DNA from: Burkholderiales bacterium
GTDB lineage: Bacteria; Pseudomonadota; Gammaproteobacteria; Burkholderiales; WYBJ01
Direction: 5' to 3'
Assembly: GCA_022841915.1 (NCBI GenBank)
Contig: JALHQN010000021.1
Span: 1-64,000, forward strand
Length of the DNA stretch: 64,000 nt
Shown: piece after piece, positions 6,528 through 63,440 of the stretch
How the letters are laid out: every line of letters begins with the position of its first letter
Position numbering within the stretch: position 1 is the first letter of the stretch
Notes under the pieces: generated by a model
Databases searched by the model: none
What the model was told of the DNA's origin: nothing
Seen by the model: the letters and a program-made list of their open reading frames with translations, nothing else
Made by a program: the position numbers and the translations under genes

Positions 6528-7466
6528 TCAGACCTTGAGCGATTCGCGAATCTTGGCGAACACTTCCAGCTGCTTGTCGTGCTCTCCGGCGAACCGCAGC
6601 ACCAGGGTACGCGCGCCTTCCTGCACGTACCCCGCGAGGAAATCCGCCGCCGCCGAGGCGGAACCGGAAAAACATGCCTGACGCTTCTTCAGCACGTCGG
6701 GGCGCTGGCCATAGTAGCCCGCCAGAAACTCGTTGATGCGCTGTTCGGCCTTGGCGGCATCGTCGTCGACCGCGATGGTGAGATATACAGCCGCCTCGAC
6801 ATCGTCGGGCTGACGCCCCGCTTCCTTCGCGACCGCCTGCACCTGGCGCCAGTGCTCGCCCCAGCGCTTCGCATCCGGCCCGGTGGGAAACCAGCCGTTG
6901 AAATGCTTGCCCGCCCGCTCCAGCGCTGCCGGGGCCGAACCGCCGCCCCAAATGGGCGGCCCACCCGCCTGATGAGGGATCGGCCCCAAGACGCCCTGCT
7001 CGACGTGCCAGCGTCCCTCCCAATCGACCGGTTTGCCTGTCCAAAGCGCACGGCATAGACGGATGCCTTCCATCAGGGTGCCGACCCGCTTCTCGAACGG
7101 CACGCCGGCCGCACGAAACTCGGCCCGCACGTTCGGCACGTCGCTGGCGATGCCTACCCCGATGATCACGCGCCCTGAACTTACCTGATCGAGCGTAGCG
7201 ATCTGGTGGGCAAGCAGCACCGGGTTGCGCAACATGGGCAGGAGAACTGCGGTGCCGAGCTTGACTCGCTTCGTGCGCCCTGCCACACCCGCCAGCAGGG
7301 TGATCGGCTCGTGCCGTGGGCGCGCAAGCAGCGAATCGCCGACCCAGACGGAATCGTAGCCCATGCTCTCCGCGCGCTCGGCCAGGCGCAGCAACGGCTC
7401 GCCCTCGGGACGCCCTTCCATGATCGATTCCCGGGTGGGCAACAAATAACCGATGCGCAGTGTCAT
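6528..7466 (-). CDS. LLM-class (luciferase-like) flavin-dependent oxidoreductase
   Basis: 312 aa. The ATG at 7466 follows AAGGAGAC. It reads as a bacterial luciferase-like TIM barrel: IGYLLPTRES at the N terminus, AERAESMGYDSVWVGDS, LGTAVLLPMLRNP, GRVIIGVGIASD, PPIWGGGSAPAALERAG and NGWFPTGPD. The family uses reduced FMN or F420 for monooxygenation or hydride transfer. No dedicated flavin reductase is adjacent. It is divergent from the radical SAM operon, with 207 bp between start codons, so shared regulation is possible but unproven. Substrate unknown. Confidence 0.87.
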   Translation of the reverse strand: MTLRIGYLLPTRESIMEGRPEGEPLLRLAERAESMGYDSVWVGDSLLARPRHEPITLLAGVAGRTKRVKLGTAVLLPMLRNPVLLAHQIATLDQVSSGRVIIGVGIASDVPNVRAEFRAAGVPFEKRVGTLMEGIRLCRALWTGKPVDWEGRWHVEQGVLGPIPHQAGGPPIWGGGSAPAALERAGKHFNGWFPTGPDAKRWGEHWRQVQAVAKEAGRQPDDVEAAVYLTIAVDDDAAKAEQRINEFLAGYYGQRPDVLKKRQACFSGSASAAADFLAGYVQEGARTLVLRFAGEHDKQLEVFAKIRESLKV

Positions 7467-7673: not shown

Positions 7674-8669
7674 ATGCACCCGACCCTGCCTTTGCTGGCC
7701 CGCACCGACTTCCCGCCGATTCGGCGCCTGCGGCTCGACACCCTGCAGGTCAACTTGGGCTACAAGTGCAATCAGTCCTGCCTGCACTGTCATGTCAACG
7801 CCGGCCCCAACCGTACCGAGATGATGGATGCCGAAACGGCCGCGATCGTGCTCGAGGTCGTTCGTCGTCGCGGCGTCAAGACCCTCGACCTGACGGGAGG
7901 CGCCCCGGAATTGAGCCCGCATTTCCGCGCGCTGGTTCGGCAGGCACGTGCGAACGGGGTCAAGGTCATCGATCGCTGCAACCTCACCATTCTCTCCGAG
8001 CCCGGCCAGGAGGACCTCGCGGCCTTTCTCGCCGAACAAGGGGTCGAGGTCGTCGCGTCGCTGCCGTGCTACTCGGCCGCCAACGTCGACCGGCAGCGCG
8101 GTGACGGGGTGTTCGAGCGCAGCATCGACGGGCTTCGCGCCCTCAACGCCCTGGGCTACGGCCAAGGCGGCGCGCTGGTGCTCAATCTCGTCTACAACCC
8201 GCAGGGCCCTTCGCTGCCGCCCGCCCAAGGCCCCCTGCAGGCCGACTACAAGCGCGAATTGCTGACGCACTTCGGCATCCGCTTCGATCATCTGTTCGCC
8301 CTGACCAACATGCCGATCCAACGCTTCGGCAGCACGCTCGTGAGCAAAGGCACCTTCGCCGGCTACATGAAGCTACTGCGCGAGGCCTACCGCGAGGAGA
8401 ACCTCGAGGCGGTGATGTGCCGCACGCTCGTCAGCGTCGACTGGCAGGGCGATCTCTACGACTGCGACTTCAACCAGATGCTGGGGCTGCGCGCAAGGCT
8501 GCCCGAAACCTCGCGGCCTCACGTGCGCGATCTGCTGGTGGCCGATGCCGCCGGCGTGCCGATCCGCATCGCCGATCACTGCTACGGCTGCACCGCCGGG
8601 CAAGGCAGCAGTTGCGGCGGCGCACTCGAATCGGATGCCGTCGTCCATGCCGCTTCGGGAACCGCGTGA
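7674..8669 (+). CDS. arsS: ArsS-type radical SAM/Cys-rich protein
   Basis: 331 aa from the ATG at 7674; an in-frame TTG at 7641 is less likely. C32-x3-C36-x2-C39 (KCNQSCLHCH) is the radical SAM iron-sulfur motif, followed by LDLTGGAPEL. The C terminus has the Cys-rich signature of this family (CYGCTAGQGSSCGG) that in some members contains selenocysteine; here it is cysteine. Family members are called ArsS because a characterised homologue adds a 5'-deoxyadenosyl group to dimethylated arsenic in arsenosugar synthesis. No arsM methyltransferase is in this window, so the substrate here is open. It is the first gene of a tightly coupled operon and overlaps the next start by one base (TGATG). Confidence 0.85.
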   Translation: MHPTLPLLARTDFPPIRRLRLDTLQVNLGYKCNQSCLHCHVNAGPNRTEMMDAETAAIVLEVVRRRGVKTLDLTGGAPELSPHFRALVRQARANGVKVIDRCNLTILSEPGQEDLAAFLAEQGVEVVASLPCYSAANVDRQRGDGVFERSIDGLRALNALGYGQGGALVLNLVYNPQGPSLPPAQGPLQADYKRELLTHFGIRFDHLFALTNMPIQRFGSTLVSKGTFAGYMKLLREAYREENLEAVMCRTLVSVDWQGDLYDCDFNQMLGLRARLPETSRPHVRDLLVADAAGVPIRIADHCYGCTAGQGSSCGGALESDAVVHAASGTA

Positions 8670-10834
8670 TGGCTGCCTCCTCGCGCAAGACCTTGTGGAT
8701 CGTCGTCGTTCTGGCTGTCATTGCGGCGATCGCGCTCTATCAGCACTATGACCTGGGCCGGCTGCTCACCCTCGACAGCCTCAAGGCCAGTCGCGACGCG
8801 TTGGCCGATGCGGTTCAGGCGCGCCCCCTGGCGACAGCACTCCTCTTCTTCTCGGTCTACGTGCTCGCGACGGCGATCTCGATACCGGGCGCGGTGATCC
8901 TGACGCTGGCCGCCGGGGCGATGTTCGGCCTGGGCCTGGGATTGCTGATCGTCTCCTTCGCCAGCAGCATCGGCGCCTTGCTCGCCTTTCTCGCCGCGCG
9001 CTATCTGCTTCGGGATGCGATCCAGTCACGCTTCGGCAAGCGGCTCGCTCCGATCAACGAGGGCATGAAACGAGACGGCACCTTCTATCTGCTGACTCTG
9101 CGCCTGGTGCCGGTGTTTCCGTTCTGGCTGATCAACCTGCTCTCGGGCCTGACGCCCATCGGCGCGCTGCGCTTCTACATCGTGAGCCAACTCGGCATGC
9201 TGCCCGGCACGCTGGTCTACGTGAACGCAGGCACGCAGCTCGCCAGCATCCAATCGCCGGGCGACATCCTCTCGCCCCTGCTGCTGGGCAGCTTCGTGCT
9301 GCTCGGCATCTTCCCGCTGATCGCCAAGGCGATCGTCGGCGTGTTGCAGCGACGCAAGGTCTACGCGCGCTGGTCCAAGCCGGCCAACTTCGATCGCAAT
9401 CTCGTCGTGATAGGGGCCGGCGCCGGCGGTCTGGTCTCGTCTTACATCGCGGCCGCGGTCAAGGCGAAGGTCACGTTGATCGAAGGCCACAAGATGGGCG
9501 GCGACTGCCTGAACTACGGCTGCGTGCCGAGCAAGGCGCTGATCCGCTCGGCCAAGATGGCGAAACAACTGCGCAAGGCCGAGGGCCTCGGCATGGCCGA
9601 CGTGCAAGGGCGCGTCGACTTCCCCGCCGTGATGGCCCGCATACACGACGTGATCGGCGCCATCGAGCCGCACGACTCCGTCGAGCGCTACACGCAGCTC
9701 GGCGTGGAGGTACTCACGGGGCACGCCCGCATCGTCACGCCCTGGAGCGTGGAAGTGAGCCTCGCCGACGGCACGCGGCAGACCTTGACCACCCGCAGCA
9801 TCGTGATCGCCGCCGGGGCGAGTCCCTTCGTGCCGCCGATTCCGGGCCTCGAGGCGGCGGGCTATCTCACGAGCGACACCGTGTGGGGCCTGAAGCAACT
9901 GCCCGAACGCCTGGTCGTGCTGGGTGGCGGCCCGATCGGCTGCGAACTCGCGCAGAGCTTCGCGCGTCTCGGTGCCGCGGTCACGCAAGTCGAGATGGGG
10001 CCACGCGTGATGGCACGAGAGGACGCAGAAGTGTCGACCCTGGTCGAAGCCTCCCTGCGCGCCGACGGCGTCACGATCCTCGCAGGGCACGAAGCCGTGC
10101 GCGTGGTGACCAACGGCGACGTCAAACAGATCGTGGTCAAGCACGAGGGCCGCGAAATCACCATCGAGTTCGACGAGCTGATTTGCGCCGTCGGACGCCG
10201 CCCGCGCGTAACCGGCTACGGTCTGGAAGAACTCGGCATCCCGCTCACGCCGCGCCAGACGATCGAAACCAACGAGTATCTGCAAACGCTCTACCCCAAC
10301 ATCTATGCCGTCGGGGATGTCGCCGGCCCGTATCAGTTCACCCACACCGCCGCGCACCAAGCGTGGTACGGCGCGGTCAACGCCCTCTTCGGCCGCTTCA
10401 AGCGCTTCAAGGCGGACTACGGCGTCATTCCCTGGACGACCTTCACCGATCCCGAAGTCGCGCGCGTCGGCTTGTCCGAGAATGAAGCCAAGGCTCAGGG
10501 CATCGACTACGAGCTGACGAAGTACGGCATCGACGATCTGGATCGTGCGATCGCCGACGGCACGGCCCACGGCTTCGTCAAGGTGCTCACCGTGCCCGGC
10601 AAAGACAAGATCCTGGGCGTCACCATCGTCGGAGAACACGCGGGCGATCTGCTGGCCGAGTTCGTCCTCGCCATGAAGCACGGCCTGGGTCTCAACAAGA
10701 TCCTCGGCACCATCCATACCTACCCCACCCTCTCGGAAGCGAACAAATACGCGGCCGGCGAGTGGAAGCGGGCCCATGCGCCGCAAAAGCTGCTGCAATG
10801 GGTCGAGCGCTATCACGCCTGGGAGCGCGCATGA
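8669..10834 (+). CDS. TVP38/TMEM64 membrane domain fused to FAD/NAD disulfide oxidoreductase
   Basis: 721 aa from the ATG at 8669, which shares a base with the arsS stop. Residues ~1-225 are a TVP38/TMEM64 (DedA-like, SNARE-associated) membrane domain with LAAGAMFGLGLGL, LRLVPVFPFWLINLLSGLT and several transmembrane segments. Residues ~240-721 are a class I pyridine nucleotide-disulfide oxidoreductase: VVIGAGAGGLVSSY (FAD), redox-active pair in GGDCLNYGCVPSK, VVLGGGPIGCELAQ (NAD), NIYAVGDVAG, and the C-terminal HTYPTLSEA with the catalytic His. It resembles MerA/lipoamide dehydrogenase without the N-terminal metal-binding domain. The reductase domain should face the cytoplasm. It would reduce a disulfide or a thiol-bound oxyanion, but this role is inferred. 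Confidence 0.9.
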   Translation: MAASSRKTLWIVVVLAVIAAIALYQHYDLGRLLTLDSLKASRDALADAVQARPLATALLFFSVYVLATAISIPGAVILTLAAGAMFGLGLGLLIVSFASSIGALLAFLAARYLLRDAIQSRFGKRLAPINEGMKRDGTFYLLTLRLVPVFPFWLINLLSGLTPIGALRFYIVSQLGMLPGTLVYVNAGTQLASIQSPGDILSPLLLGSFVLLGIFPLIAKAIVGVLQRRKVYARWSKPANFDRNLVVIGAGAGGLVSSYIAAAVKAKVTLIEGHKMGGDCLNYGCVPSKALIRSAKMAKQLRKAEGLGMADVQGRVDFPAVMARIHDVIGAIEPHDSVERYTQLGVEVLTGHARIVTPWSVEVSLADGTRQTLTTRSIVIAAGASPFVPPIPGLEAAGYLTSDTVWGLKQLPERLVVLGGGPIGCELAQSFARLGAAVTQVEMGPRVMAREDAEVSTLVEASLRADGVTILAGHEAVRVVTNGDVKQIVVKHEGREITIEFDELICAVGRRPRVTGYGLEELGIPLTPRQTIETNEYLQTLYPNIYAVGDVAGPYQFTHTAAHQAWYGAVNALFGRFKRFKADYGVIPWTTFTDPEVARVGLSENEAKAQGIDYELTKYGIDDLDRAIADGTAHGFVKVLTVPGKDKILGVTIVGEHAGDLLAEFVLAMKHGLGLNKILGTIHTYPTLSEANKYAAGEWKRAHAPQKLLQWVERYHAWERA

Positions 10835-11658
10835 CCATGAACACACGACGCCGCAATCTGCTCTTCGCCCTCGCGGCCCTGCCGCTCGCACGCGGGCTGC
10901 ATGCCCAGACGGGTTTCGACCATACGCACAGCGCCTGGTCGGCCCTGCTCAAGAAGCATGTCGTCGTCCTGCGCGGCGGTCAGGCCTCGCAGGTGCGCTA
11001 TGCCGGCTTTGCAGCCGAACGACCAGCGCTCAAGGCCTATCTCGACAGCCTGTCCGGTGTGAGCGCCGCTGCGTTCAAAGGCTTCAGCAAGGTGCAGCAA
11101 CAGGCCTTCCTGACCAACGCCTACAACGCCTTCACCGTCGAACTCATCCTGACCAAATACCCCGATCTGAAGTCGATCCGGGATCTCGGCGGGCTGCTGA
11201 AGAACCCATGGCGCCCGAAGTGGGTACCCTTGCTCGGCAGCAAGGTGTCGCTCGACGATATCGAGCACGAGATGCTGCGCGAGCGCGGACGCTACGACGA
11301 ACCCCGGGTACACTTCGCCGTCAACTGCGCAAGCATCGGCTGCCCCGCCTTGCGCGAAGAGGCCTTCGTCGCCGAGCGCCTGGAGGCGCAGCTCGAGCAG
11401 CAGACGGTCCGGTTCCTTTCCGACCGCACGCGCAACCGTTACAACCCGCAACGCAGTCGCCTGGAGGTCTCGAAGATTTTCGACTGGTACGGCGAAGACT
11501 TCCGCCTCGGCCATCGCGGCATCGTCTCGCTGCCGGCCTTTTTCGCGCGCTATGCCGATCAGCTCGCCGATGCACCCGCCGATCGCGAACGCATACGTGC
11601 TCAGCAAGCGGAGATCGCCTTTCTCGACTACGACTGGGCGCTCAACGACCCGCGATGA
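10831..11658 (+). CDS. DUF547 exported protein
   Basis: 275 aa; the ATG at 10831 overlaps the upstream stop as ATGA. The N terminus (TRRRNLLFALAALPLARGLHAQ) is an export signal with a twin-arginine flavour, so it is probably periplasmic. The DUF547 core is recognisable: AYLDSLSGVS, FLTNAYNAFTVELILTKYP, VSLDDIEHEMLRE, RVHFAVNCASIGCPALREEAF, and FDWYGEDFRLGHRGI. The invariant Asn/Cys-containing segment suggests a papain-like enzyme fold, but no activity is established. DUF547 proteins recur beside radical-SAM-associated glycosyltransferases, as here. Confidence 0.87.
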   Translation: MTMNTRRRNLLFALAALPLARGLHAQTGFDHTHSAWSALLKKHVVVLRGGQASQVRYAGFAAERPALKAYLDSLSGVSAAAFKGFSKVQQQAFLTNAYNAFTVELILTKYPDLKSIRDLGGLLKNPWRPKWVPLLGSKVSLDDIEHEMLRERGRYDEPRVHFAVNCASIGCPALREEAFVAERLEAQLEQQTVRFLSDRTRNRYNPQRSRLEVSKIFDWYGEDFRLGHRGIVSLPAFFARYADQLADAPADRERIRAQQAEIAFLDYDWALNDPR

Positions 11659-12332
11659 CGCCGGCGCTCTCCATCATCGTGCCTATGCTCGACGAAGCGT
11701 CAGGCATCACCGCTGCACTGAGCGCACTGGCGCCGCTGCGTATGCGGGGCGCAGAGGTGATCGCCGTCGACGGGGGCAGCACGGACGGCACGCTCGAACT
11801 CGCACGCCCTCATGCGGATACGGCATTGCGTTCTCCTCGAGGCCGAGCGCGGCAAATGAATGCAGGCGCTGCGGCGGCCCGCGGCGAAACGATGCTGTTC
11901 CTCCACGCAGACACGCGTCTGCCCGAGGCCGCCGATCGCCTCATCGATGAAGCCCTCGCGCGCGGCGCGCACTGGGGCCGTTTCGACGTGCATATCGAAG
12001 GGCGCGCTGCCATGCTGCGAACGATCGCCGCCATGATGAACCTGCGCTCGCGCATCACCGGCATCGCCACCGGCGATCAGGCGATGTTCGTGCGCCGCTT
12101 CGCCTTCGAGCGCGTCGGCGGCTTTCCCGATCAGCCCCTGATGGAAGATATCGAGCTCTCGCGCCGGTTGGGCGCGCTCGGGTCGCCCGCATGTCTGCGC
12201 GCGCGCGTCACGACCTCCGGTCGGCGCTGGGAAGCGCGCGGTGTCTGGCCCACGATCTTCCTCATGTGGCGGCTGCGCTGGCGGTACTGGCGCGGCGCCT
12301 CGCCGCACGAACTCGCGCGGGCGTACAGGTGA
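11655..12332 (+). CDS. TIGR04283-type GT2 glycosyltransferase (radical-SAM-associated transferase 2)
   Basis: 225 aa, ATGA overlap with the DUF547 gene. A GT-A fold is indicated by LSIIVPMLDEA, VDGGSTDGT and the metal-binding FLHADTRLP. GRARQMNAGAAAA is characteristic of the TIGR04283 subgroup. The C terminus RWRYWRGASPHELARAYR matches the family's amphipathic tail. It would transfer a sugar from a nucleotide donor at the cytoplasmic face. TIGR04283 and TIGR04282 (next gene) usually occur together with ArsS-type radical SAM proteins. The acceptor is unknown. Confidence 0.87.
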   Translation: MTPALSIIVPMLDEASGITAALSALAPLRMRGAEVIAVDGGSTDGTLELARPHADTALRSPRGRARQMNAGAAAARGETMLFLHADTRLPEAADRLIDEALARGAHWGRFDVHIEGRAAMLRTIAAMMNLRSRITGIATGDQAMFVRRFAFERVGGFPDQPLMEDIELSRRLGALGSPACLRARVTTSGRRWEARGVWPTIFLMWRLRWRYWRGASPHELARAYR

Positions 12333-12979
12333 GTACCGCGCTGATCGTCTTCGCGAAGGCGCCTGTGGCCGGCGCGGCCAAGACACGGCTCGCACCCGCA
12401 CTCGGCGCCGACGGGGCGGCTGTCCTCGCTCAGCGCATGCTCGACCACATCGTCAGCGTCGGCTGCAGCGCAGGCTTCAGCCGGGTCGAAGTGTGCGCGA
12501 CGCCGAACGCCGATCATCCGGCTTTCCATCGTCTCGCATCCCGCCATGCCGTCGCGCTCGATTCGCAGGGCGACGGCGATCTCGGCGCACGGATGAATCG
12601 CGCGTTGACTCGCGCATTGCTGGCGCACGAGCGCGCCTTGCTGGTCGGCACCGATGCACCGGCGATCACCGCGCACATGCTGCACAACGCCGCCGTCGCA
12701 TTGCACGAAAACGATGCCGTTTTCATCCCCGCGCTCGACGGCGGCTACGTGCTGGTCGGTTTGCGCCGCGCCGCCCCGGCGCTGTTCGCCGACATGACCT
12801 GGAGCACGAGCGACGTGATGCAAGCGACCCGCAGCCGCGCCCGGTCGCAGGACCTGCGCTGGGTCGAACTCGATCCGGTCGCCGATGTCGACGAGCCGGC
12901 CGATCTGATCCATGTGCCGGCGAACTGGTTCTCCCATGCGCCCGCGCGCCTCCTCAACGTTGAAGCGAGCACTCCATGA
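12329..12979 (+). CDS. TIGR04282/DUF2064 nucleotidyl-/glycosyltransferase-like protein (transferase 1)
   Basis: 216 aa. The start is the GTG at 12329 overlapping the previous stop (GTGA); the frame extends upstream but that part is non-homologous. FAKAPVAGAAKTRLAPALG is the DUF2064 signature, resembling the NTP-binding loop of MobA-type nucleotidyltransferases. LLVGTDAPAI and FIPALDGGYVLVGL follow the family pattern for metal and base contacts. It could activate a sugar or other phosphate for the GT2 partner. Short overlaps on both sides indicate translational coupling. Confidence 0.85.
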   Translation: MSTALIVFAKAPVAGAAKTRLAPALGADGAAVLAQRMLDHIVSVGCSAGFSRVEVCATPNADHPAFHRLASRHAVALDSQGDGDLGARMNRALTRALLAHERALLVGTDAPAITAHMLHNAAVALHENDAVFIPALDGGYVLVGLRRAAPALFADMTWSTSDVMQATRSRARSQDLRWVELDPVADVDEPADLIHVPANWFSHAPARLLNVEASTP

Positions 12980-13875
12980 AGTCACTGCGTTCCCTCACCG
13001 CCTGCTTGTGCGCGCTCGGCGCCCTCGTGCTGGGAATGGCGAATGTGCCCAGTGCCCACGCCCAAGGCGCGCCCCTCCGATTCGGCGTCGGGATGTTCCA
13101 GCCCGACCGCGAGCGCAACGACGCGACTTACCGCCCGCTCGCGCGACATCTGTCGCAACGCCTGGGCCGTCCGGTCGAACTGCGCACCGTCGACTCCTGG
13201 GAAGGACTGGCACAGTCGCTGGCGAGCGGCGAAACGGACATCGCCCTGATGGGCCCGTGGGGCTACGTGCTTGCCAATCATCGTGCCGGCGCACAAGCGA
13301 TTTCGACCATCCTGTACGAAGGCAAGCCGGAATACTTCGCGCTGATCGTCACGCACCCGGATTCGGGCCTAGCCACCGTCGAGGATCTCCTCACGAAAGG
13401 AAAGGGCAAGACGTTCGCCTTCGGCGACAAGGGATCCACCTCGGGCTATCTCATCCCCCTGCACTTCTTCATGCAAAAGGGCATCGAGCCCGAGAAGCAC
13501 TTCGCCCGCGTGTTGCACACGAAGCACCAGGCCATCCAGATGCAAGTCACCGCCGGGCAGATCGACGCGGGTGCCGACTACAACCGCAACCGCAACGCGA
13601 TGATCGAGCAGGGCATGATCAAGGCCGATCGCAGCAAGATCATTTGGCAATCCGCGCCGCTGCCCAACGACGCCTTCGCTGTCGGCGCGCAACTGCACAA
13701 GGACAAGGTGCTCGTCGCTCGCCTGCAGTCGGCGCTTGCCGAAGTCGGCGGGCTGCTCAAGGCTCAGCCCCGGTTGCTTCCGACCCACTACACGGGCTTC
13801 GTGAACAGCGACAATCGCCTCTACAAGCCCATCCGCGACGCCGGGCTTGCCACCGGCAAACTGACCGTACGATAG
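12976..13875 (+). CDS. PhnD-like periplasmic phosph(on)ate/oxyanion-binding protein
   Basis: 299 aa, ATGA overlap with the transferase gene. A Sec signal peptide ends near PSAHAQ (residue ~30). The PhnD-family pattern follows: LRFGVGMFQPDRER, TDIALMGPWGYVLANH, and the oxyanion-contact loop FAFGDKGSTSGYLIP (~residues 151-165), then HQAIQMQVTAGQIDAGADYN. Relatives bind phosphonate, phosphite or phosphate; AioX, which binds arsenite, is from a related group. The position inside an arsS operon makes arsenate or an organo-arsenical a candidate ligand (inference). Confidence 0.88.
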   Translation: MKSLRSLTACLCALGALVLGMANVPSAHAQGAPLRFGVGMFQPDRERNDATYRPLARHLSQRLGRPVELRTVDSWEGLAQSLASGETDIALMGPWGYVLANHRAGAQAISTILYEGKPEYFALIVTHPDSGLATVEDLLTKGKGKTFAFGDKGSTSGYLIPLHFFMQKGIEPEKHFARVLHTKHQAIQMQVTAGQIDAGADYNRNRNAMIEQGMIKADRSKIIWQSAPLPNDAFAVGAQLHKDKVLVARLQSALAEVGGLLKAQPRLLPTHYTGFVNSDNRLYKPIRDAGLATGKLTVR

Positions 13876-13879
13876 CCCG

Positions 13880-14770
13880 ATGCCCGCAGCACTCGCTCAT
13901 CGTGATCCCGTGTTGCCGTCCGGCCGGCTGGGCTTTCTCGCGCTCGCCGCCGTGTACGCCGTGCTGATCGCGCTCTGCCTGGGTACATTGATCGCGGCCG
14001 GAGACCTGTCGTTCGGCCGCAACCCGTGGGAGAACCTGTTGAAGTCCGCGGGCGATTTCGCCCGCCCGAGCTTGCTCGACGTCTGGTTCGGGCCCGAGCG
14101 TCTGGAGTATCGCAGCGACGACGGCACGTTGCTGCGCGTCGAGAACCGCCGCGTGGTCGAAACGGAGTTTCTCGCGGCCCTGGGCCGCGCCACCTGGGTC
14201 ACCTTCCAGATCGCCACCTTGGGCTCGCTGCTCGCGGCGGCCCTCGCACTGCCCCTCGGGTTGCTTGCCGCTCGCAACATGAATGCGCCTCGTCCCATCG
14301 CGGTCGCTGCCAACGGCGTCCTCGGTGTAGCGCGCGCGGTGCATACGTTGGTGTTCGGCCTGGTCCTGGTCGGCATCGTCGGACTGGGCCCCACGGCGGG
14401 CATACTCGCGATCGCGCTGCATTCCATGGGCACCTACGGCAAGCTCTACGCCGAGAGCATAGAGACGCTCGACATGGCCGCCATCGACGCCGTGCGCGCG
14501 ACCGGGGCCACCCCGATGCAGGTCTTCTTCCACGGCGTCTGGCCCTCGGTCCTGCCCCAGTTCGTGAGCAGTCATCTCTATGTTTGGGAGTACAACATCC
14601 GCGACTCCACCATACTCGGGCTGATCGGCGCGGGCGGCCTCGGTTTGCTCATTTCAGAGGCCGTGAGCCTGTTCCAATGGGGGCGCCTATCGACCATCCT
14701 GATCGTCCTGGTGGCACTGGTCATGACCTTCGATGCGCTCTCCCGGCGCATACGCCAGGCGTTGCTATGA
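13880..14770 (+). CDS. PhnE-like ABC transporter permease
   Basis: 296 aa inner-membrane protein starting 5 bp after the PhnD-like gene. There is one N-terminal membrane segment, then a ~75-residue periplasmic stretch (ERLEYRSDDGTLL, VENRRVVETEF), then a five-helix permease core. The cytoplasmic coupling (EAA-type) loop is DAVRATGATPMQVFFHGVWP, followed by NIRDSTILGLIGAGGLG, typical of PhnE. It forms the channel for the neighbouring binding protein and ATPase, probably as a homodimer. Confidence 0.88.
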   Translation: MPAALAHRDPVLPSGRLGFLALAAVYAVLIALCLGTLIAAGDLSFGRNPWENLLKSAGDFARPSLLDVWFGPERLEYRSDDGTLLRVENRRVVETEFLAALGRATWVTFQIATLGSLLAAALALPLGLLAARNMNAPRPIAVAANGVLGVARAVHTLVFGLVLVGIVGLGPTAGILAIALHSMGTYGKLYAESIETLDMAAIDAVRATGATPMQVFFHGVWPSVLPQFVSSHLYVWEYNIRDSTILGLIGAGGLGLLISEAVSLFQWGRLSTILIVLVALVMTFDALSRRIRQALL

Positions 14771-15603
14771 CCACGACGCCCACGACAGCGGCGGTGCGCC
14801 TGAGCGACATCAGCGTCGCGGCCGGAGAACGCGTGCTGCTGGACGTCCCCCATCTGGAGATCGCCGCAGGCGAGCGCGTGGCTCTGGTCGGACCGAACGG
14901 CGCGGGGAAGAGCACGCTGCTGCGCACCCTTGCCGGCTTCGTCCGGCTCGCCCGAGGCGAGGTTCAGGTGATCGGTCGCACGTTCGGCCCTGAACACGCG
15001 GCGCTCTCCCGCGCGCAGTGGCGCAATCTTCGATCCGAACTCGGCCACGTCATGCAGGGTTTGCATCTCGTGCCGCGCCTGAGCGCACGCGAGAACGTGC
15101 TGATCGGCGCATCGGTGCGCATGCAGGCGTTGCCCGCCTGGCGCAACTGGGCGCGCATCTATCCCGCCAACCTGCGTGCGGAAGCCGATGCGGCCCTCGC
15201 GGACCTGGACATCCAGCACTTGGCCGACACGCGCGCCGATCGCCTCTCCGGCGGGGAGCGTCAGAAAGTCGCGATCGCGCGCCTGCTCCTGCAGCACCCG
15301 TCGCTGATCCTCGCCGACGAGCCCACAGCCGCCCTCGATCCGAGCGCCACGCTGCAAGCCTGCCAGGCGCTGCGCCGTGCAGCCCAGGGCAGGACGCTCA
15401 TCAGCGTCGTGCATCAGACCGAATTGCTACCGTTGCTTGCCCAGCGCGTGCTGGGACTCGCTCACGGCCGCATCGTCTGGGATCTGCCCGTCGGCGGCGT
15501 TGACGAAGCCGCGCTCAAGGCGCTCTACGGCGCGCCTCACCCGGAGTCGACCGATGCACGAGGCAGACAACCGGACTTGAGCCGCGCGATCCATGTCACC
15601 TGA
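14767..15603 (+). CDS. PhnC-like ABC transporter ATPase
   Basis: 278 aa from the ATG at 14767 (ATGA overlap with the permease stop). Walker A GPNGAGKST (~residues 43-51), Q-loop VMQGLHLVPRL, signature LSGGERQKVAIAR, Walker B LILADEP and switch His in SVVHQTEL are all present, so it should be active. It is a soluble subunit energising the PhnE-like permease. Gene order is D-E-C, unlike the C-D-E order of E. coli phn. The C-terminal ~20 residues are a low-complexity extension. Confidence 0.9.
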   Translation: MTTTPTTAAVRLSDISVAAGERVLLDVPHLEIAAGERVALVGPNGAGKSTLLRTLAGFVRLARGEVQVIGRTFGPEHAALSRAQWRNLRSELGHVMQGLHLVPRLSARENVLIGASVRMQALPAWRNWARIYPANLRAEADAALADLDIQHLADTRADRLSGGERQKVAIARLLLQHPSLILADEPTAALDPSATLQACQALRRAAQGRTLISVVHQTELLPLLAQRVLGLAHGRIVWDLPVGGVDEAALKALYGAPHPESTDARGRQPDLSRAIHVT

Positions 15604-15634
15604 ATCTCGTTCACCCACCACCCCCGGAGAATCC

Positions 15635-16099
15635 ATGTCATACACACGCGCTGGACTTGCCTTGATCTCGGCGATCGCCTTGAGCGGATGCGCCACGTTG
15701 CAGCCGAGCGACAACGGCATGATCACGCTGAAAAGCCCGCATAGCGCCGCTGAGACGCTCACGCGCCTCGAGGGCGAGGTGAAGAAGCGCGGTCTGGCGA
15801 TCGTCGCCCGCATCGATCATGCCGCGGGCGCGACCAAAGTCGGCAAGCGCCTGCGGCCGACCGAGCTCATGATCTTCGGCAATCCGCAGGCCGGAACACC
15901 GTTGATGGAGTGCGCGCAGGGGGTGGGGATCGACCTGCCGATGAAAGCCCTCGTATGGGTGGATGCCCAGTCCCAGGTGTGGCTGGCCTACAACGATCCG
16001 GTCTGGATGGTCCGCAGGCACGGCGGCGGCGACTGTCCCGCGGCCGACAACGTGCGCAAGGCCCTGGCGGCCATCGCTCAGTCGACGATCGCGCGATGA
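15635..16099 (+). CDS. DUF302 lipoprotein
   Basis: 154 aa. The ATG at 15635 has GGAGA upstream; the open frame begins earlier, inside the ATPase gene. The N terminus is a type II signal with lipobox LSGC (Cys ~19). The mature part has the DUF302 pattern: SAAETLTRLEGEVKKRGLAIVARIDHAAGA, LRPTELMIFGNPQAGTPLM, and ALVWVDAQSQVWLAYNDPVWM (strings shortened by residue position: ~34-60, ~70-90, ~102-124). DUF302 domains are small, often heme- or metal-linked folds of unclear function. It would be anchored to the periplasmic membrane face. Confidence 0.85.
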   Translation: MSYTRAGLALISAIALSGCATLQPSDNGMITLKSPHSAAETLTRLEGEVKKRGLAIVARIDHAAGATKVGKRLRPTELMIFGNPQAGTPLMECAQGVGIDLPMKALVWVDAQSQVWLAYNDPVWMVRRHGGGDCPAADNVRKALAAIAQSTIAR

Positions 16100-17085
16100 T
16101 CGGCGGCACTGCCGACAGCACAGCGGCGGGCAGAAGCTGCCCGCTGCACTATCGCTATCGGCCTGAAGTCTTCGCCTCGGCGGCCAGAGCGGATCTTCAG
16201 TCCCTCGAAGTGCTGTATGTCGTGGGGGGGCTCTACGGCAACGAACTCGCCCTGGAACGGGTGCTCGAACTGTTCGCGGCCGAGCGAGGCCGCAAGCGTC
16301 TGGTGTTCAATGGCGACTTTCACTGGTTCGACATCGATCCGGATGTATTCGCGCGCGTCCAATCCCAGGTGCTCGCCCATACCGCCACCCGAGGCAACGT
16401 CGAGACCGAGCTGGCCGCGCCACCGGCGGACGGCGCGATCGACGCCGGCTGCGGCTGCGCCTACCCGGCCTGGGTGAGCGACGACATCGTCATGCGCTCC
16501 AATCGCATCCTGGCTCGGCTTCGTCAGGCGACTGCGCCGATCCAGCGCTGCGAACTCGGATCGCTGCCGATGTGGATGCGCGCCGATGTCGGGGACATGC
16601 GTATCGGCATCGTGCATGGCGATGCCGAGTCCCTCGCCGGCTGGGGGTTCGCCCAGGAGCATCTGCACGATCCCGCGCAGCAGGATCGAGTTCGCGGCTG
16701 GCTGTCGAGAGCGAACGTGGATGCCTTCGCTTGCAGCCACACCTGCCTTCCCGTGTTCCAGTCGCTGCCGTTGGACTCGGGAGCGCACCGCGGATGGATA
16801 TTCAACAACGGAGCCGCAGGCATGCCGAACTTCGCGGGCGACAGCGCCGGACTGCTCACGAGAATCGCCGTGTCGCCCCCCCTGTCCGGCCACTCTCGGG
16901 CCAGCGTGAACCGGGGTGAGGTTTACGCGGATGCCTATGCGATCGAAATCGACGTGAGCGAGTCGCAGCGACGCTTCCTGCGCCAGTGGCCGCCGGGCAG
17001 CGACGCCTACGCTTCCTACTTCGAGCGCATGGCGAGGGGGCCCGACTATTCGGTCCAACGGATGGTTCGCCCCAACGCCGCGTAG
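16096..17085 (+). CDS. Divergent calcineurin-like metallophosphoesterase
   Basis: 329 aa, ATGA overlap with the lipoprotein stop; last gene of the operon. Metallophosphatase motifs appear in order: VVGGLYGNELAL in the motif I position, FNGDFHWFD (GD), ATRGNVE (GN-E in the GNHE position), IVHGDAES (GH-type) and CSHTCLP (GHTH-type). Motif I normally reads D-x-H-G-N; here Asp and His are replaced by Gly and Tyr, removing two metal ligands. Three cysteines in AGCGCAY add another odd feature. It may bind one metal or act on an unusual phosph(on)ate or arsenate ester. No signal peptide. Confidence 0.75.
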   Translation: MIGGTADSTAAGRSCPLHYRYRPEVFASAARADLQSLEVLYVVGGLYGNELALERVLELFAAERGRKRLVFNGDFHWFDIDPDVFARVQSQVLAHTATRGNVETELAAPPADGAIDAGCGCAYPAWVSDDIVMRSNRILARLRQATAPIQRCELGSLPMWMRADVGDMRIGIVHGDAESLAGWGFAQEHLHDPAQQDRVRGWLSRANVDAFACSHTCLPVFQSLPLDSGAHRGWIFNNGAAGMPNFAGDSAGLLTRIAVSPPLSGHSRASVNRGEVYADAYAIEIDVSESQRRFLRQWPPGSDAYASYFERMARGPDYSVQRMVRPNAA

Positions 17086-17678: not shown

Positions 17679-18105
17679 ATTACCGCGGGACGCGGGAAAG
17701 ATACTGACGTTGCCCCATGCCTCGAAGCGCGCACGCGTCCTGCGCCGCACCCCGAAGCCTTTCACCTGCCCTGCGCGCGAGCCCGACTATGCGTATCGGG
17801 TAAAGAGCGTCGTGCCCGCACCTTTCTCTTCTTGCGAGACGGCCTTACGAGGGGGCGATGCTCGCCCTCCGCGCCTGCGCAACGCTCGCTGGCCTGATCC
17901 AGGCTCCTCCAGAGATTCGACGCGTACGTCGCCAGCCGCGGTGATCGGCCAGGCGGCATCCAGCCTGCCTCCATCGATACCCTCCTCGTTCGAATTTTCT
18001 CGATGACCGCGATCGAGCATCCATCGTGCCCGCCGAGGTGGCTTGCAGGAAGGAAATCCCCGTGATACTAGTTACCAAACAAATCAATACATCCGTGGGG
18101 GATGC
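17679..18105 (+). other. Intergenic region upstream of the histidine kinase
   Basis: 427 bp. Short open frames on both strands have no recognisable protein features. The last ~60 bp before the kinase become AT-richer (TACTAGTTACCAAACAAATCAATAC) and probably hold its promoter, but I cannot fix -10/-35 boxes with confidence. Nothing else is seen. Confidence 0.4.
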
Positions 18106-19587
18106 ATGTGCACGACGCAGGATATGCGAGTCCTCGGCGCGGTCGCGGAGGCCTCGCCTGTCATGATTTGGACCACCGATGCGACGAATCATGTCAACCA
18201 TGTCAACCGTGCTTGGCGGCAGTTTTTCGGCGTCGCAGAGGCCAACCTGAGTGAGATCGACTGGCGACAGTTCGTGCATCCCGAAGACTATGACATTTAT
18301 GTATCCGGGTTTGCGGCATGTGCCGCTCGACGCGAGGAGTTCCGGGCCCGCTGCCGCGCACGGCGCGCAGACGGCCAGTGGCGTTGGTTGAGTGCGCATG
18401 GCGCGCCCTACTTCGTCGGCGACGTCTGGTCCGGCATGGTGGGAAGCTCCATGGACATCACCGAGCAGGTCGAAGCAGAGGCGCTCGTCAGGGAGAGCGA
18501 GGCGCGCTTTCGGCATGTGCTCGAGCATTCCCCTGTCATTGTTTTCACGATGGACGACCAGCTCCGGTACACCTGGATACACAACGAGCACGCGACCTTC
18601 GATACGCAATGCGTCATCGGCCGCAGGGACGAAGAGTTGCTGCCGCCCGACGAGGCCGAAGCGCTGACGAAGATCAAGCGGTCGGTATTGACCAGCGGTG
18701 TCGGACTGCGTACCGAGCACGCGATGAGCGTCGCAGGTTTTCGGCACATCTATGATCTGAAGATCGATCCCATCCACGATCCTGACGGTGCCATCGTGGG
18801 GCTGCGCGCAGCCGCCGTCGACGTGACGGAGCGCAAGCGCCTGGAGGAAGCGCTACGCTCGGCCGATCGCCAGAAGGAAGAGCTGCTCGCCATCGTCGCC
18901 CACGAGATCCGCAACAGCCTCTCGCCCATGACGAACGCCGTTCAATTGCTCAAGCGCGCCGCGACGCTCGAGGATCGACGAATCGAGATCCTCGAGCGTC
19001 AGTTGTCGCACCTGAAGCGCATCGTCGACGATCTGCTCGACATTGCCCGCTCGAGTGCCGGCAAGATCGAACTGCGCAAGAAAACGATGCGCATCGATCT
19101 GGTTGCCCGAACGACGATCGAAACGGTATCGCCGCAAGTCCAAGCCAAACAGCACCGGCTCAAGCTGCATGTTCCCGAGCAGCCGGTCTTCGTGTTCGCC
19201 GATGAGGTCCGAATCTGCCAGGTGCTCGTAAATCTGCTTCACAATGCGGTGAAGTTCACCCCTGCAGGGGGCACGATCGAGGTCGAGGTTCGCACCGAAG
19301 GCAACGAAGCGGTCGTCAGCGTGCGCGACACGGGCATAGGCTTGGCGGCCGACAAGCAAATGCAGGTGTTCGCCATGTTCGGTCAGCTGACGACGCCGGC
19401 GGGGCAGGCCGGGCTCGGCATCGGACTCACCTTGTGCAAGCGGCTCGTCGAATTGCACGGCGGCAGCATCGCCGTCCGCAGCGAGGGACCCGGACACGGC
19501 AGCGAGTTTCTCGTCCGCCTTCCCCTCGCGAGGGCACCGAGTCGAAGCCAAGCCAGTGAACTGTCCGACGATGATGCCGGTGCCTAG
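18106..19587 (+). CDS. Soluble PAS-domain sensor histidine kinase
   Basis: 493 aa from the ATG at 18106, preceded by a GGGGG purine run; an in-frame TTG at 18043 is rejected. There are two PAS domains (residues ~10-125 with FVHPEDYDIY and GSSMDITEQ; ~130-245 with AVDVTERKRLEEAL), then HisKA with phospho-acceptor H266 in VAHEIRNSLSPM, then HATPase_c (NLLHNAVKFTP, DTGIGLA, GLGIGLTLCKRLVELHGG). No transmembrane segment is present, so it senses a cytoplasmic cue. No response regulator gene is adjacent, so it is an orphan kinase. Confidence 0.92.
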   Translation: MCTTQDMRVLGAVAEASPVMIWTTDATNHVNHVNRAWRQFFGVAEANLSEIDWRQFVHPEDYDIYVSGFAACAARREEFRARCRARRADGQWRWLSAHGAPYFVGDVWSGMVGSSMDITEQVEAEALVRESEARFRHVLEHSPVIVFTMDDQLRYTWIHNEHATFDTQCVIGRRDEELLPPDEAEALTKIKRSVLTSGVGLRTEHAMSVAGFRHIYDLKIDPIHDPDGAIVGLRAAAVDVTERKRLEEALRSADRQKEELLAIVAHEIRNSLSPMTNAVQLLKRAATLEDRRIEILERQLSHLKRIVDDLLDIARSSAGKIELRKKTMRIDLVARTTIETVSPQVQAKQHRLKLHVPEQPVFVFADEVRICQVLVNLLHNAVKFTPAGGTIEVEVRTEGNEAVVSVRDTGIGLAADKQMQVFAMFGQLTTPAGQAGLGIGLTLCKRLVELHGGSIAVRSEGPGHGSEFLVRLPLARAPSRSQASELSDDDAGA

Positions 19588-61287: not shown

Positions 61288-62457
61288 ATGCGCGAGCGCA
61301 TCTTTGAATTTCCGGCCTTGGAGCGGCTGATCTACGGCAAGGCGGCGGCTACCGCGCTCGCAGCCGAAGCCGAGCGGCTCGATGCCAAACGCGTGTTCCT
61401 CGTCGTCAGCGGCACGATGAATCGCACCACCGACGAGGTGGACAAGGTGCGCGCCGCGCTCGGCTCGCGCTACGCGGGCAGCTACGACAAGATCCCGCCC
61501 TTCACGCCCCGCTCGGCCGTGCTGGAAGCGGCACAGCACGCCCGCTCGGCAGGGACCGACTTGGTCGTCACGTTCGGCGGCGGCTCGGTAACGGAGGCCG
61601 GCAAGCTCGTGCGTCTGTGCCTGCAGCAGGACATCACCGACGTCGACGGCTTCGATCGGTTCCGCGCCATCGTCAATCCCGACGGCACGCGCACCACGCC
61701 GCAGTACGAGGGCCCGCGCATGAACCAGATCGCGATCCCGACCACGCTTTCCGCCGGCGAACTGACGACCGGCGGCGGCGCCACCGACGAACGCATCAAG
61801 CGCAAGTTCAGCCACGCCAACGCGCAGATGATTCCACGGGTGGTGATCTTCGATCCGGCCCCGAGCCTGCATACGCCGCTCTGGGTGTGGCTCTCGACCG
61901 GCGTGCGCGCCATCGATCACGCCACCGAAGGCTTGTGCTCGCCGCTCGCCAATCCGGTGAGCGACGGCCTCTATCTGCAGGCCCTGCGCTTGCTGTGCTC
62001 GTCCCTGCGCCGGACCAAACGCGATCCGAGCGACCTGGACGCGCGCCTGGAGAGCTTCTACGGCATCTGGCTAGCGATCGCCGGGCGCCACGGCGGCGTG
62101 GAAATGGGTGCCAGCCATGCGATCGGTCATGTGCTCGGGGGCACCTGCGGGGTACCGCACGGCTACACCTCGTGCGTGATGCTGCCCCATGTGCTGCGCT
62201 ACAACCGCGCCGCGAATGCCGAGCGCCAGGGCATGGTGGCTGAAGCGCTCGGCCATCCCGGGGAGGATGCTGCCGACGTGCTGACTGCATTCATCGCCGA
62301 ACTCGGGTTGCCGCATCGGCTGGCGGATGTCGGCGTCGAACCGGATCAATTCGCCGTCATCGCGAACAACGCCATGCACGACAAATGGCTGCACACCAAT
62401 CCGGTCAAGATCTCCTCGCCCGAAGAGATCTTGAAGATCCTGGAGGCGGCCGCGTGA
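61288..62457 (+). CDS. Iron-type alcohol dehydrogenase / maleylacetate reductase family
   Basis: 389 aa. I choose the ATG at 61288 because AAGGAG lies seven bases upstream; an ATG at 61261 has none. Group III features: VVTFGGGSVTEAGK (NAD(P) binding), IPTTLSAGELTTGGG, the metal ligands in AIDHATEGL and GASHAIGHVLGGTCGVPHG. It oxidises an alcohol or reduces an enoate such as maleylacetate. It overlaps the next gene by 4 bp. Confidence 0.88.
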   Translation: MRERIFEFPALERLIYGKAAATALAAEAERLDAKRVFLVVSGTMNRTTDEVDKVRAALGSRYAGSYDKIPPFTPRSAVLEAAQHARSAGTDLVVTFGGGSVTEAGKLVRLCLQQDITDVDGFDRFRAIVNPDGTRTTPQYEGPRMNQIAIPTTLSAGELTTGGGATDERIKRKFSHANAQMIPRVVIFDPAPSLHTPLWVWLSTGVRAIDHATEGLCSPLANPVSDGLYLQALRLLCSSLRRTKRDPSDLDARLESFYGIWLAIAGRHGGVEMGASHAIGHVLGGTCGVPHGYTSCVMLPHVLRYNRAANAERQGMVAEALGHPGEDAADVLTAFIAELGLPHRLADVGVEPDQFAVIANNAMHDKWLHTNPVKISSPEEILKILEAAA

Positions 62458-63440
62458 AGATCGCCGTTCTGGACGACTACCTGCGCCTCGCCCTCGCCAG
62501 CGCCGACTGGTCGGGACTCACGCAAAGCTGCCAGATCACGGTGTTCGATCGTGCGCTGGCCCATGACCAGGACGCGGCCGAGCAACTCGCCCCGTTCGAC
62601 ATCATCTGCCTGCTGCGCGAGCGGATGCCGATCACCGACACCCTGCTCGCGCGCTTGCCGAAGCTGAAGATGATCGCGGTCACCGGGCCGTATTGCCGGC
62701 CGCTCGATGTGGCGGCAGCCACCCGGCGCGGCATCGTGGTCTCGCACACGGAACTGCGCGGCACCTATCGCAAGGCGACGTGCGAGCTCACCTGGGGCCT
62801 GATTCTCTCCGTCGCCCGCAACATTCCGAACGAGGTCGAGAGCATGCGCCGGGGCGGTTGGCAGACGAGCGCCGGCATCACGCTCGCCGGTCGCACGCTC
62901 GGGCTGCTCGGCCTGGGTCGCCAAGGCCGGCACATGGTGCCGATTGCCCAGGCCTTCGGCATGGAGGTCATCGCCTGGAGCCAGAATCTGACGCCCGATG
63001 ACGCCGCCCAAGCAGGGGTGCGCTACGTCTCCAAGGACGAACTGTTTTCGCGCAGCGATGTGTTGAGCGTGCACCTTGTGCTCGGCGAGCGCTCGCGCGG
63101 CCTGGTGGGCGCAGCTGAACTGGCGAGCATGAAGCCGACGGCCATCCTGATCAACGTGGCACGCGGCGCGATCGTCGACGAGGCGGCGCTCATCGAGGCG
63201 CTGAGCACGAACCGCATCGCCGGCGCCGGACTCGATGTCTATGCCCAGGAGCCGCTGCCCCCCGAGCATCCGCTGCGCTCGCTGCGCAACGTCGTCGTCA
63301 CGCCGCATCAGGGGCATAACGTGCAGGAGTTCTATCAAGTCGCGTATGCCGATACGGTGGAAAACATCACCGCGTTTGTGGCCGGTCAGCCGATTCGCAT
63401 TCTGCCCCCCGAGCGCAATGCGAGCCGGTTTGCGCCTTGA
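62454..63440 (+). CDS. D-2-hydroxyacid dehydrogenase
   Basis: 328 aa from the GTG at 62454 (GTGA overlap with the previous stop). NAD motif LGLLGLGRQG (~residues 149-158) and catalytic residues R in LINVARGAIVDE, E in DVYAQEPLP, H in TPHQGH are present. It interconverts a 2-oxo acid and a D-2-hydroxy acid. The next active gene, a transaldolase, starts 363 bp later. Confidence 0.9.
   Translation: MKIAVLDDYLRLALASADWSGLTQSCQITVFDRALAHDQDAAEQLAPFDIICLLRERMPITDTLLARLPKLKMIAVTGPYCRPLDVAAATRRGIVVSHTELRGTYRKATCELTWGLILSVARNIPNEVESMRRGGWQTSAGITLAGRTLGLLGLGRQGRHMVPIAQAFGMEVIAWSQNLTPDDAAQAGVRYVSKDELFSRSDVLSVHLVLGERSRGLVGAAELASMKPTAILINVARGAIVDEAALIEALSTNRIAGAGLDVYAQEPLPPEHPLRSLRNVVVTPHQGHNVQEFYQVAYADTVENITAFVAGQPIRILPPERNASRFAP

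Follow-up and report, generated by a model that had tools for sequence, protein, structure and literature searches.

The window analysed here, a stretch of 64,000 nt of contig JALHQN010000021.1 (assembly GCA_022841915.1; Burkholderiales bacterium, WYBJ01), carries ten same-strand open reading frames (ORFs) at 7674-17085 (+), which join the gene of the radical SAM protein ArsS to a PhnDEC-type importer and to a divergent protein of the metallophosphoesterase fold (hereafter MPE), with no gene for ArsM among them. In our judgement, there is an even chance that this operon represents an ArsM-free subtype of the arsS (“arsenosugar-type”) operons, which imports a methylated arsenical and routes it via MPE to ArsS. 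The data suggest that the novelty lies in the combination: an ArsS cluster that lacks ArsM and includes an importer together with a cysteine-bearing protein of a phosphatase fold, as yet uncharacterised. In a literature search, the scope of which left out most subscription papers, neither metallophosphoesterase nor phnD was ever joined with arsenosugar.

ArsS adenosylates dimethylarsenic(III), and dimethylarsenic is the substrate that it needs; the enzyme was reportedly characterised by Cheng et al. in 2021. The adenosylation of arsenic is cited in an excerpt of PMC12159101. In the window, the arsS product reaches 453.8 bits with the NCBIfam model TIGR04167 (cut-off 300), and its two companions also pass the curated cut-offs (279.6 bits against 182 for TIGR04283 and 196.7 against 134 for TIGR04282), as the initial annotation of this DNA had supposed. 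The source genome, which is 96% complete and comprises 66 contigs with 6.21 Mb in total, has a single ArsS above the TIGR04167 cut-off. At this completeness, the matches to an ArsM query were short, confined to methyltransferase domains and no better than 24.9 bits, and a scan with NF008823, the ArsM model, found nothing at E<=1e-20 in the genome, which extends the earlier remark that no arsM is present from the operon to the genome. The description of an ArsS-type cluster devoid of ArsM and provided with a built-in PhnDEC-type importer is supported. A gene for an MTAP-like phosphorylase is located elsewhere in the same genome (268.6 bits, slightly below the cut-off), and in some related loci MTAP-like genes are found near arsS.

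With the known ArsM + ArsS arsenosugar clusters, the window shares ArsS, TIGR04283 and TIGR04282 over the NCBIfam cut-offs, as well as the fusion of a VTT membrane domain to a reductase and the DUF547 protein; the fusion is an arsS companion in many related loci, and the DUF547 gene also recurs beside arsS. The difference is that both the operon and the genome are without ArsM, while the importer and MPE are present instead.

Association of MPE with ArsS and ArsM

The distribution of these genes was followed in 300 genomes drawn evenly from the order (order sample), in 398 genomes of the phylum (phylum sample), in the 80 closest ArsS loci with named records, and in a larger set of ArsS loci from which ArsS proteins shorter than 280 aa and identical copies were dropped (175 -> 170). 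A gene was called ArsM-like in the order sample at about 160 bits or more with NF008823, weaker matches being dropped. Several ArsM matches contain one in-frame TGA (G272:C64, G242:C1, G242:C2, G181:C1, G270:C34, G083:C34 and G010:C20), which could be a selenocysteine codon, a frame error or the gene end.

MPE was found in 48 and ArsS in 92 of the 300 order genomes. The two go together: ArsS is present in 46 of the 48 MPE genomes, 46 ArsS genomes have no MPE, and 206 genomes have neither (Fisher p 7e-26, kinship ignored). The two MPE genomes without ArsS are G241, whose MPE contig is 6 kb long, and G289, whose MPE match (E 6e-4) was taken as spurious and dropped, so that the further counts refer to 47 MPE genomes.

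Around arsS itself, MPE and ArsM were never encountered together. Among the 80 closest ArsS loci, MPE occurs in 23, an ArsM-like gene in 20 and both in none; the 170 distinct loci comprise 53 with MPE, 32 with linked ArsM, 85 with neither and 0 with both (p 2.5e-6, kinship ignored). PhnD and PhnE together were detected in just 6 of the 80 closest loci; the constant linkage of importer and ArsS, for which the initial annotation had proposed to look, was not observed.

The MPE label requires 29 changes on the ArsS tree, from which we conclude that the module was often gained or lost. ArsS proteins of the MPE type and of the ArsM type are interleaved on this tree, which rules out a separate ArsS clade for the MPE-type operons. 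Both kinds of neighbour are found in genome G132, where ArsM adjoins the arsS copy of L194 and MPE adjoins the second copy (L164). Two genomes of the same genus as the window, G005 and G055, combine ArsS with a full ArsM and lack both MPE and the HtxB-like PhnD described below, and a third, G100, has ArsS with neither ArsM nor MPE; in G005 (contig C29) the full ArsM is located about 45 kb from arsS. A similar arsS-arsM cluster to those of Gammaproteobacteria was seen in L069, a record titled Halobacteria archaeon, which is probably a binning error.

In the phylum sample, MPE was present in 7 of the 398 genomes: the window's own, G638 from the same order, and five from the class outside the order. 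ArsS accompanies it in G638 and G545.

The importer and its ligand

PhnE of the window passes TIGR01097 (228.3 bits, cut-off 216.7), and PhnD passes the broad model TIGR01098 (157.1 against 112.05) and stays below the cut-off of the PhnD equivalog TIGR03431 (161.9 against 261.1); PhnC is below the cut-off of TIGR02315 (177.5 against 266.1). The closest solved structure to PhnD is HtxB, with E 3e-49, 171 bits and 36% identity over the aligned part, the next protein other than HtxB reaching 90 bits. AioX and ArrX, the arsenic oxyanion binders which serve as sensors of oxidase/reductase operons, belong to the same substrate-binding protein (SBP) superfamily (6esv and 6x6b are among the matches), with far lower similarity to PhnD (53 and 42 bits); therefore, arsenic oxyanion binding has a precedent in this superfamily.

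HtxB binds hypophosphite. According to excerpts of PMC5700983 and PMC6629693, its ligand is held under the Trp cap (W52) with T129, S130 and Y97, and the pocket walls are formed by P71, N128, F158, M176 and the R178-D206 salt bridge. In HtxB numbering, W52, P71, Y97, T129, S130, R178 and D206 are kept in the window protein and in 18 other distinct PhnD proteins of the module, and S128, H158 and Y or F176 occur in all 19, some of which are just 38-40% identical to the window's (its own signature is W52, Y97, S128-T129-S130, H158, Y176, R178, D206). The same pocket set was found in nine further importer-type proteins; three PhnD proteins of MPE genomes that are more distant (265-273 bits) have A158, W176, T178 and E206 instead. 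In this comparison, L230 repeats L159. The constancy of the pocket across such divergence indicates that all of them bind ligands of one class, namely a small oxyanion of tetrahedral shape held under an aromatic cap. As far as the excerpts of PMC6629693 describe them, HtxB and the “HtxB-like” proteins share with the window PhnD the Trp cap, Tyr97, T129-S130 and the R178-D206 pair, and the substitutions N128S, F158H and M176Y/F are the same as in the “HtxB-like” proteins. Unlike HtxB, the window PhnD stands in an arsS/MPE context, with ars genes beside its relatives in two genomes.

The HtxB-like PhnD (at least 389 bits) was detected in 21 of the 300 order genomes, 19 of which have MPE and 20 ArsS, and in 1 of the 208 ArsS-negative genomes. 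The two genomes where it occurs without MPE are incomplete (G073, 87%; G143, 84%). The initial annotation had named, as one outcome that would speak against its idea, that importer and phosphoesterase are unlinked in other genomes, and here the result is mixed, mostly favourable: phnD/phnE-type genes lie in the same cluster as MPE in 14 of the 47 MPE genomes of the order sample, and the HtxB-like PhnD is present but apart from MPE in six more (G002, G113, G188, G219, G262 and G279). G114 was scored as importer-positive from PhnE and PhnC alone, its contig ending before phnD. In G262, the HtxB-like phnDEC genes (L275) are followed by modE- and modABC-like molybdate uptake genes, as judged by eye.

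In 8 of these 14 genomes, arsS lies in another part of the genome than the importer-MPE cluster, and G241 yielded no arsS (with G241 included, the separate clusters are L214, L218, L220-L225 and L229); for L218 and L223 the separation could be an assembly break, because both are short contigs. MPE and the importer form a portable module. That MPE accompanies an importer even where ArsS is absent, although 20 MPE genomes have neither type, fits an early role of MPE in handling the imported compound, without proving it.

An alternative transporter is a sodium:solute symporter of the SSS type, which was found in 7 of the 300 order genomes, adjoins MPE in all seven (7 of the 47 MPE genomes), and never occurs with the HtxB-like PhnD. 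Classified by importer, the 47 MPE genomes include 20 with the PhnD type, 7 with the symporter, 20 with neither and 0 with both (p 0.014 for the non-overlap, kinship ignored). Among 70 MPE loci, 34 contain neither PhnD/E nor the symporter. Among the unassigned genes that recur in these 34, a TauE/SafE anion-transporter-like protein is encoded upstream of arsS in L036 and L180, which are apparently one record, and in L176 (L036:6172-6912, L176:10663-11592). Another TauE/SafE protein is encoded after MPE in L225 (L225:10559-11398), which already carries PhnDEC. It is possible that TauE/SafE-type proteins are further anion transporters of the system. An EamA-type transporter is present in the MPE loci L138 and L144.

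In G219, phnD-phnE are divergent from genes for an ArsR-family regulator, an ArsC-like reductase and an aquaporin, and in G188 from the same three ars-type genes and ArsI (132.5 bits, cut-off 116); the ArsC-like reductases of both genomes have 72-74 bits, below the cut-off of 174. As general neighbours of the importer, the ars genes were rejected: queries with the G188 versions matched, besides G188 and G219, just ArsC-like genes in L039 and L124. In the passages of PMC6426599 on a SAR11 strain, dimethylarsenate addition raised phnD expression about 2-fold (P 0.050), and cross-feeding of methylated arsenic is described; SAR11 differs in oxidising the methyl groups, and these passages do not mention arsS or MPE.

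We suggest dimethylarsinate, methylarsonate or a similar methylated arsenical as the most likely ligand of the importer. The main rival, which we regard as unlikely, states that the importer serves for reduced-phosphorus (phosphite or hypophosphite) uptake, has come into the operon by chance, and is accompanied by an MPE of phosphorus metabolism. It draws on the same closeness to HtxB and on the pocket signature, for which phosphite is predicted in the excerpts of PMC6629693. Under this explanation, it would be hard to see why the HtxB-like PhnD is nearly confined to ArsS (20/21) and MPE (19/21) genomes and is lacking in 207 of the 208 ArsS-negative ones, why ars genes adjoin it in two genomes, and why a sodium symporter can take its place. 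In addition, a D-2-hydroxyacid dehydrogenase query, not PtxD itself but from what we take to be its superfamily, matched 0 of 28 importer loci at E<=1e-4 (ptxD was not searched genome-wide), and htxA or ptxD was not seen beside the HtxB-like importer, no dedicated search for them being made. Of the anions proposed by the initial annotation, the arsenical-like one has gained support and a phosphonate has become unlikely, and sequence does not settle between an arsenical and phosphite.

MPE and the proposed route

In Pfam and NCBIfam, MPE had no match at E<=0.001 (Pfam Metallophos, E=0.02). Its AlphaFold2 model, built on an alignment of 22 sequences, has a mean pLDDT of 91.8 and a pTM of 0.91, and the solved structures nearest to it are those of the asymmetric Ap4A hydrolase SapH (3qfm) and of related proteins (Z 20.8, rmsd 3.2, 240 aligned); a search of solved structures with the MPE alignment profile gave one chance match (E=0.4). 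The fragment MPEs L010 and L029 were left out of the MPE alignment A1.

Residues were counted in 67 distinct full-length MPE sequences, with 8 of the 119 MPE loci (incomplete or of odd length) and copies sharing the last 250 residues left out. D74, N101, H174 and H215 are invariant in 67/67; equally without exception, the expected D-x-H positions are G45 and Y47, and the last motif His (G-H-x-H) is replaced by C217. C15, C119 and C121 are invariant too, which with C217 makes four fixed cysteines. The positions were assigned to metal ligands by what we take to be the superfamily consensus. Since D74, N101, H174 and H215 are invariant while D-x-H and the last His are replaced, one half of the two-metal site appears from the sequences to be kept and the other half lost, so that MPE does not have the complete ligand set of the catalytic calcineurin-like metallophosphoesterases. 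MPE is not an ordinary metallophosphoesterase, but a divergent family with that fold: the name given by the initial annotation describes the fold correctly and does not hold for a normal phosphoesterase, half of the expected metal-site residues being absent. With the SapH/Spr1479 family of asymmetric Ap4A hydrolases, MPE shares the fold and the residues of one metal-site half; it differs from them by the absence of the other half and by the four invariant cysteines. In three loci, a HAD-family hydrolase gene adjoins MPE (L138:6836-7531, L189:8147-8842, L227:7991-8779); it was typed as HAD type II by NCBIfam in L138, and by similarity in L189 and L227.

The structural match to SapH and the four retained residues could also mean that MPE is a true, late-acting phosphoesterase, acting for example on a glycerophospho- or nucleotide-linked arsenosugar, with the importer recovering such phosphorylated products. 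We consider this quite unlikely: the D-x-H positions are Gly and Tyr and the last motif His is Cys in all 67 sequences (by the consensus-based motif assignment), MPE accompanies the importer also in places where neither arsS nor the glycosyltransferases lie beside it, and the HtxB-type pocket leaves little room (88 A3 in the model given in the excerpts of PMC6629693).

For the arsenical route, we infer the ligand, the reaction of MPE, the order of steps and the end product as follows. The substrate of the HtxB-like ABC importer would be a small tetrahedral oxyanion, and among these a methylated arsenical (dimethylarsinate, methylarsonate) that other microbes release is the most likely; the sodium symporter might replace the ABC importer in this role. 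MPE would act first on the imported anion, most likely bound at the retained half of the metal site and aided by the four invariant cysteines, and would yield a thiol-bound or reduced As(III) form. ArsS would then adenosylate dimethylarsenic(III), and the product may be converted into a glycosylated arsenical by the TIGR04283 glycosyltransferase together with TIGR04282, the nucleotidyltransferase-like protein, and a nucleoside phosphorylase whose gene lies elsewhere in the genome.

In its furthest form, which we put forward tentatively and hold to be rather unlikely, this proposal makes MPE a new enzyme of arsenical handling: its phosphatase fold would have become a reductase or transferase that uses cysteines to act on pentavalent methylated arsenic, and would be paired with dedicated importers (HtxB-like ABC or sodium symporter), which would let ArsM-less bacteria build arsenosugar-type compounds from the methylated arsenic of others. 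If true, arsenic(V) reduction would have recruited a phosphatase fold once more, with ArsC and Acr2 as the precedents.

Some ArsS genomes can produce dimethylarsenic by means of ArsM. Many are without it (67/92 in the order sample at the threshold of about 160 bits), so that the origin of the ArsS substrate in them is unexplained, and to our knowledge the bacterial acquisition of methylated arsenic is largely open. For some of the ArsM-less genomes, the portable importer and MPE module, which was never seen with a linked ArsM beside it, provides an answer that can be tested, namely cross-fed methylated arsenic. For assays, it provides a defined binding protein, two alternative transporters and a still uncharacterised family of cysteine-bearing proteins with the phosphatase fold.

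Several data weigh against this route. ArsM-like genes occur in 8 of the 46 genomes with MPE and ArsS, in 17 of the 46 MPE-negative ArsS genomes and in 11 of the 208 ArsS-negative genomes, the difference between the first two groups being not significant (p 0.06); because those 8 genomes do carry such a gene and 29 of the 46 MPE-negative ArsS genomes carry none, MPE cannot by itself account for the absence of ArsM. With kinship taken into account on the ArsS tree, independent pairs gave no significant MPE/ArsM exclusion either (0 same, 2.3 opposite, 10.7 undecided, n=13). MPE was found without ArsS in G368, G433 and G467, which belong to one genus, and in G655, and 20 of the 47 MPE genomes have neither importer. 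Beside phnDE, a phnC match was not found in 7 of the 28 importer loci checked (L030, L172, L174, L270-L273), including both loci with ars genes, and such ars neighbours occur in 2 of the 4 importer genomes of one genus, G113 and G279 being without. Finally, the excerpts of PMC6629693 model a larger pocket from N128S, F158H and M176Y/F, with space for a third oxygen, and predict phosphite. The route leaves unexplained the ArsS genomes with neither ArsM nor MPE (29/92), the MPE genomes without a recognised importer and the MPE genomes without ArsS.

Another explanation for the lack of ArsM, in our opinion very unlikely, is that the substrate of ArsS itself has changed to inorganic arsenite or to a phosphorus or selenium compound, so that ArsM is not needed and the importer supplies the new substrate. 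It would agree with the absence of an ArsM-like gene from 38 of the 46 MPE+ArsS+ genomes, and with G368, G433 and G467, where the neighbours of the symporter and MPE are a VTT-reductase and a radical SAM protein other than ArsS (for that of L243, the best model is NF049973, with 101.6 bits against a cut-off of 380), no ArsS being found; in G655, the symporter and MPE have neither VTT-reductase nor radical SAM beside them. However, the interleaving of MPE-type and ArsM-type ArsS on the tree (29 changes) speaks for one chemistry, and the window ArsS keeps its high score to the equivalog model. The clusters of this genus (L242 in G433, L243 in G368, L244 in G467) adjoin ectoine-like genes by eye, and their radical SAM protein, distantly like the Rv1681 family, occupies the place of ArsS. 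That ordinary phosphonate nutrition genes, a PhnDEC feeding C-P lyase, were fused to the arsS operon by chance is highly improbable despite the PhnE match to TIGR01097, given that PhnJ is absent from the source genome and present in just 5 of the 21 importer genomes, that PhnD is below the equivalog cut-off, and that the linkage recurs, being gained or lost repeatedly.

Operon layout and neighbouring genes

The ten ORFs (Table 1) have no internal stops, and their nine junctions comprise six 4-bp overlaps, one 1-bp overlap, one 11-bp overlap and one 4-bp gap, in agreement with the predicted one-strand operon of mostly 4-bp overlaps. The VTT-reductase fusion, DUF547 and DUF302 gave the family matches that had been foreseen.

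Table 1. Genes of the arsS operon, with positions in the window
Gene or product	Position	Strand	Basis and remarks
arsS	7674..8669	+	radical SAM, TIGR04167; C-terminal domain DUF3641; CxxxCxxC at C32-C36-C39
VTT (TVP38-like) membrane domain fused to pyridine-nucleotide-disulfide oxidoreductase	8669..10834	+	VTT + Pyr_redox_2; dihydrolipoyl dehydrogenase/MerA-like
DUF547 protein, function unknown	10831..11658	+	DUF547 match; recurrent arsS neighbour
TIGR04283 arsenosugar-type glycosyltransferase 2	11655..12332	+	NCBIfam match
TIGR04282 (DUF2064, CofC-like nucleotidyltransferase fold)	12329..12979	+	NCBIfam match; GTG start
phnD, PhnD-like substrate-binding protein	12976..13875	+	HtxB-like pocket signature
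phnE, PhnE-type ABC permease	13880..14770	+	TIGR01097
phnC, PhnC-type ABC ATPase	14767..15603	+	TIGR02315, below cut-off
DUF302 protein	15593..16099	+	lipobox-like LSGC (by eye); alternative start 15635
MPE, divergent metallophosphoesterase-fold protein	16096..17085	+	structure model and residue pattern

In the window, neither the Rfam scan (gathering scores) nor the tRNA scan gave a match. The operon is flanked by genes for a luciferase-like monooxygenase (6528-7466, -) and a PAS histidine kinase (18043-19587, +), and a D-2-hydroxyacid dehydrogenase-like gene (62454-63428, +) is located 45 kb downstream; none of the three shows a sign of operon membership. In arsS clusters of other genomes, an oxidoreductase that is usually found fused to SelD recurs as a stand-alone protein (L007:15437-16561, L008, L010, L025 and others); the one of L007 reaches 295.7 bits with TIGR03169, slightly below the cut-off of 310.

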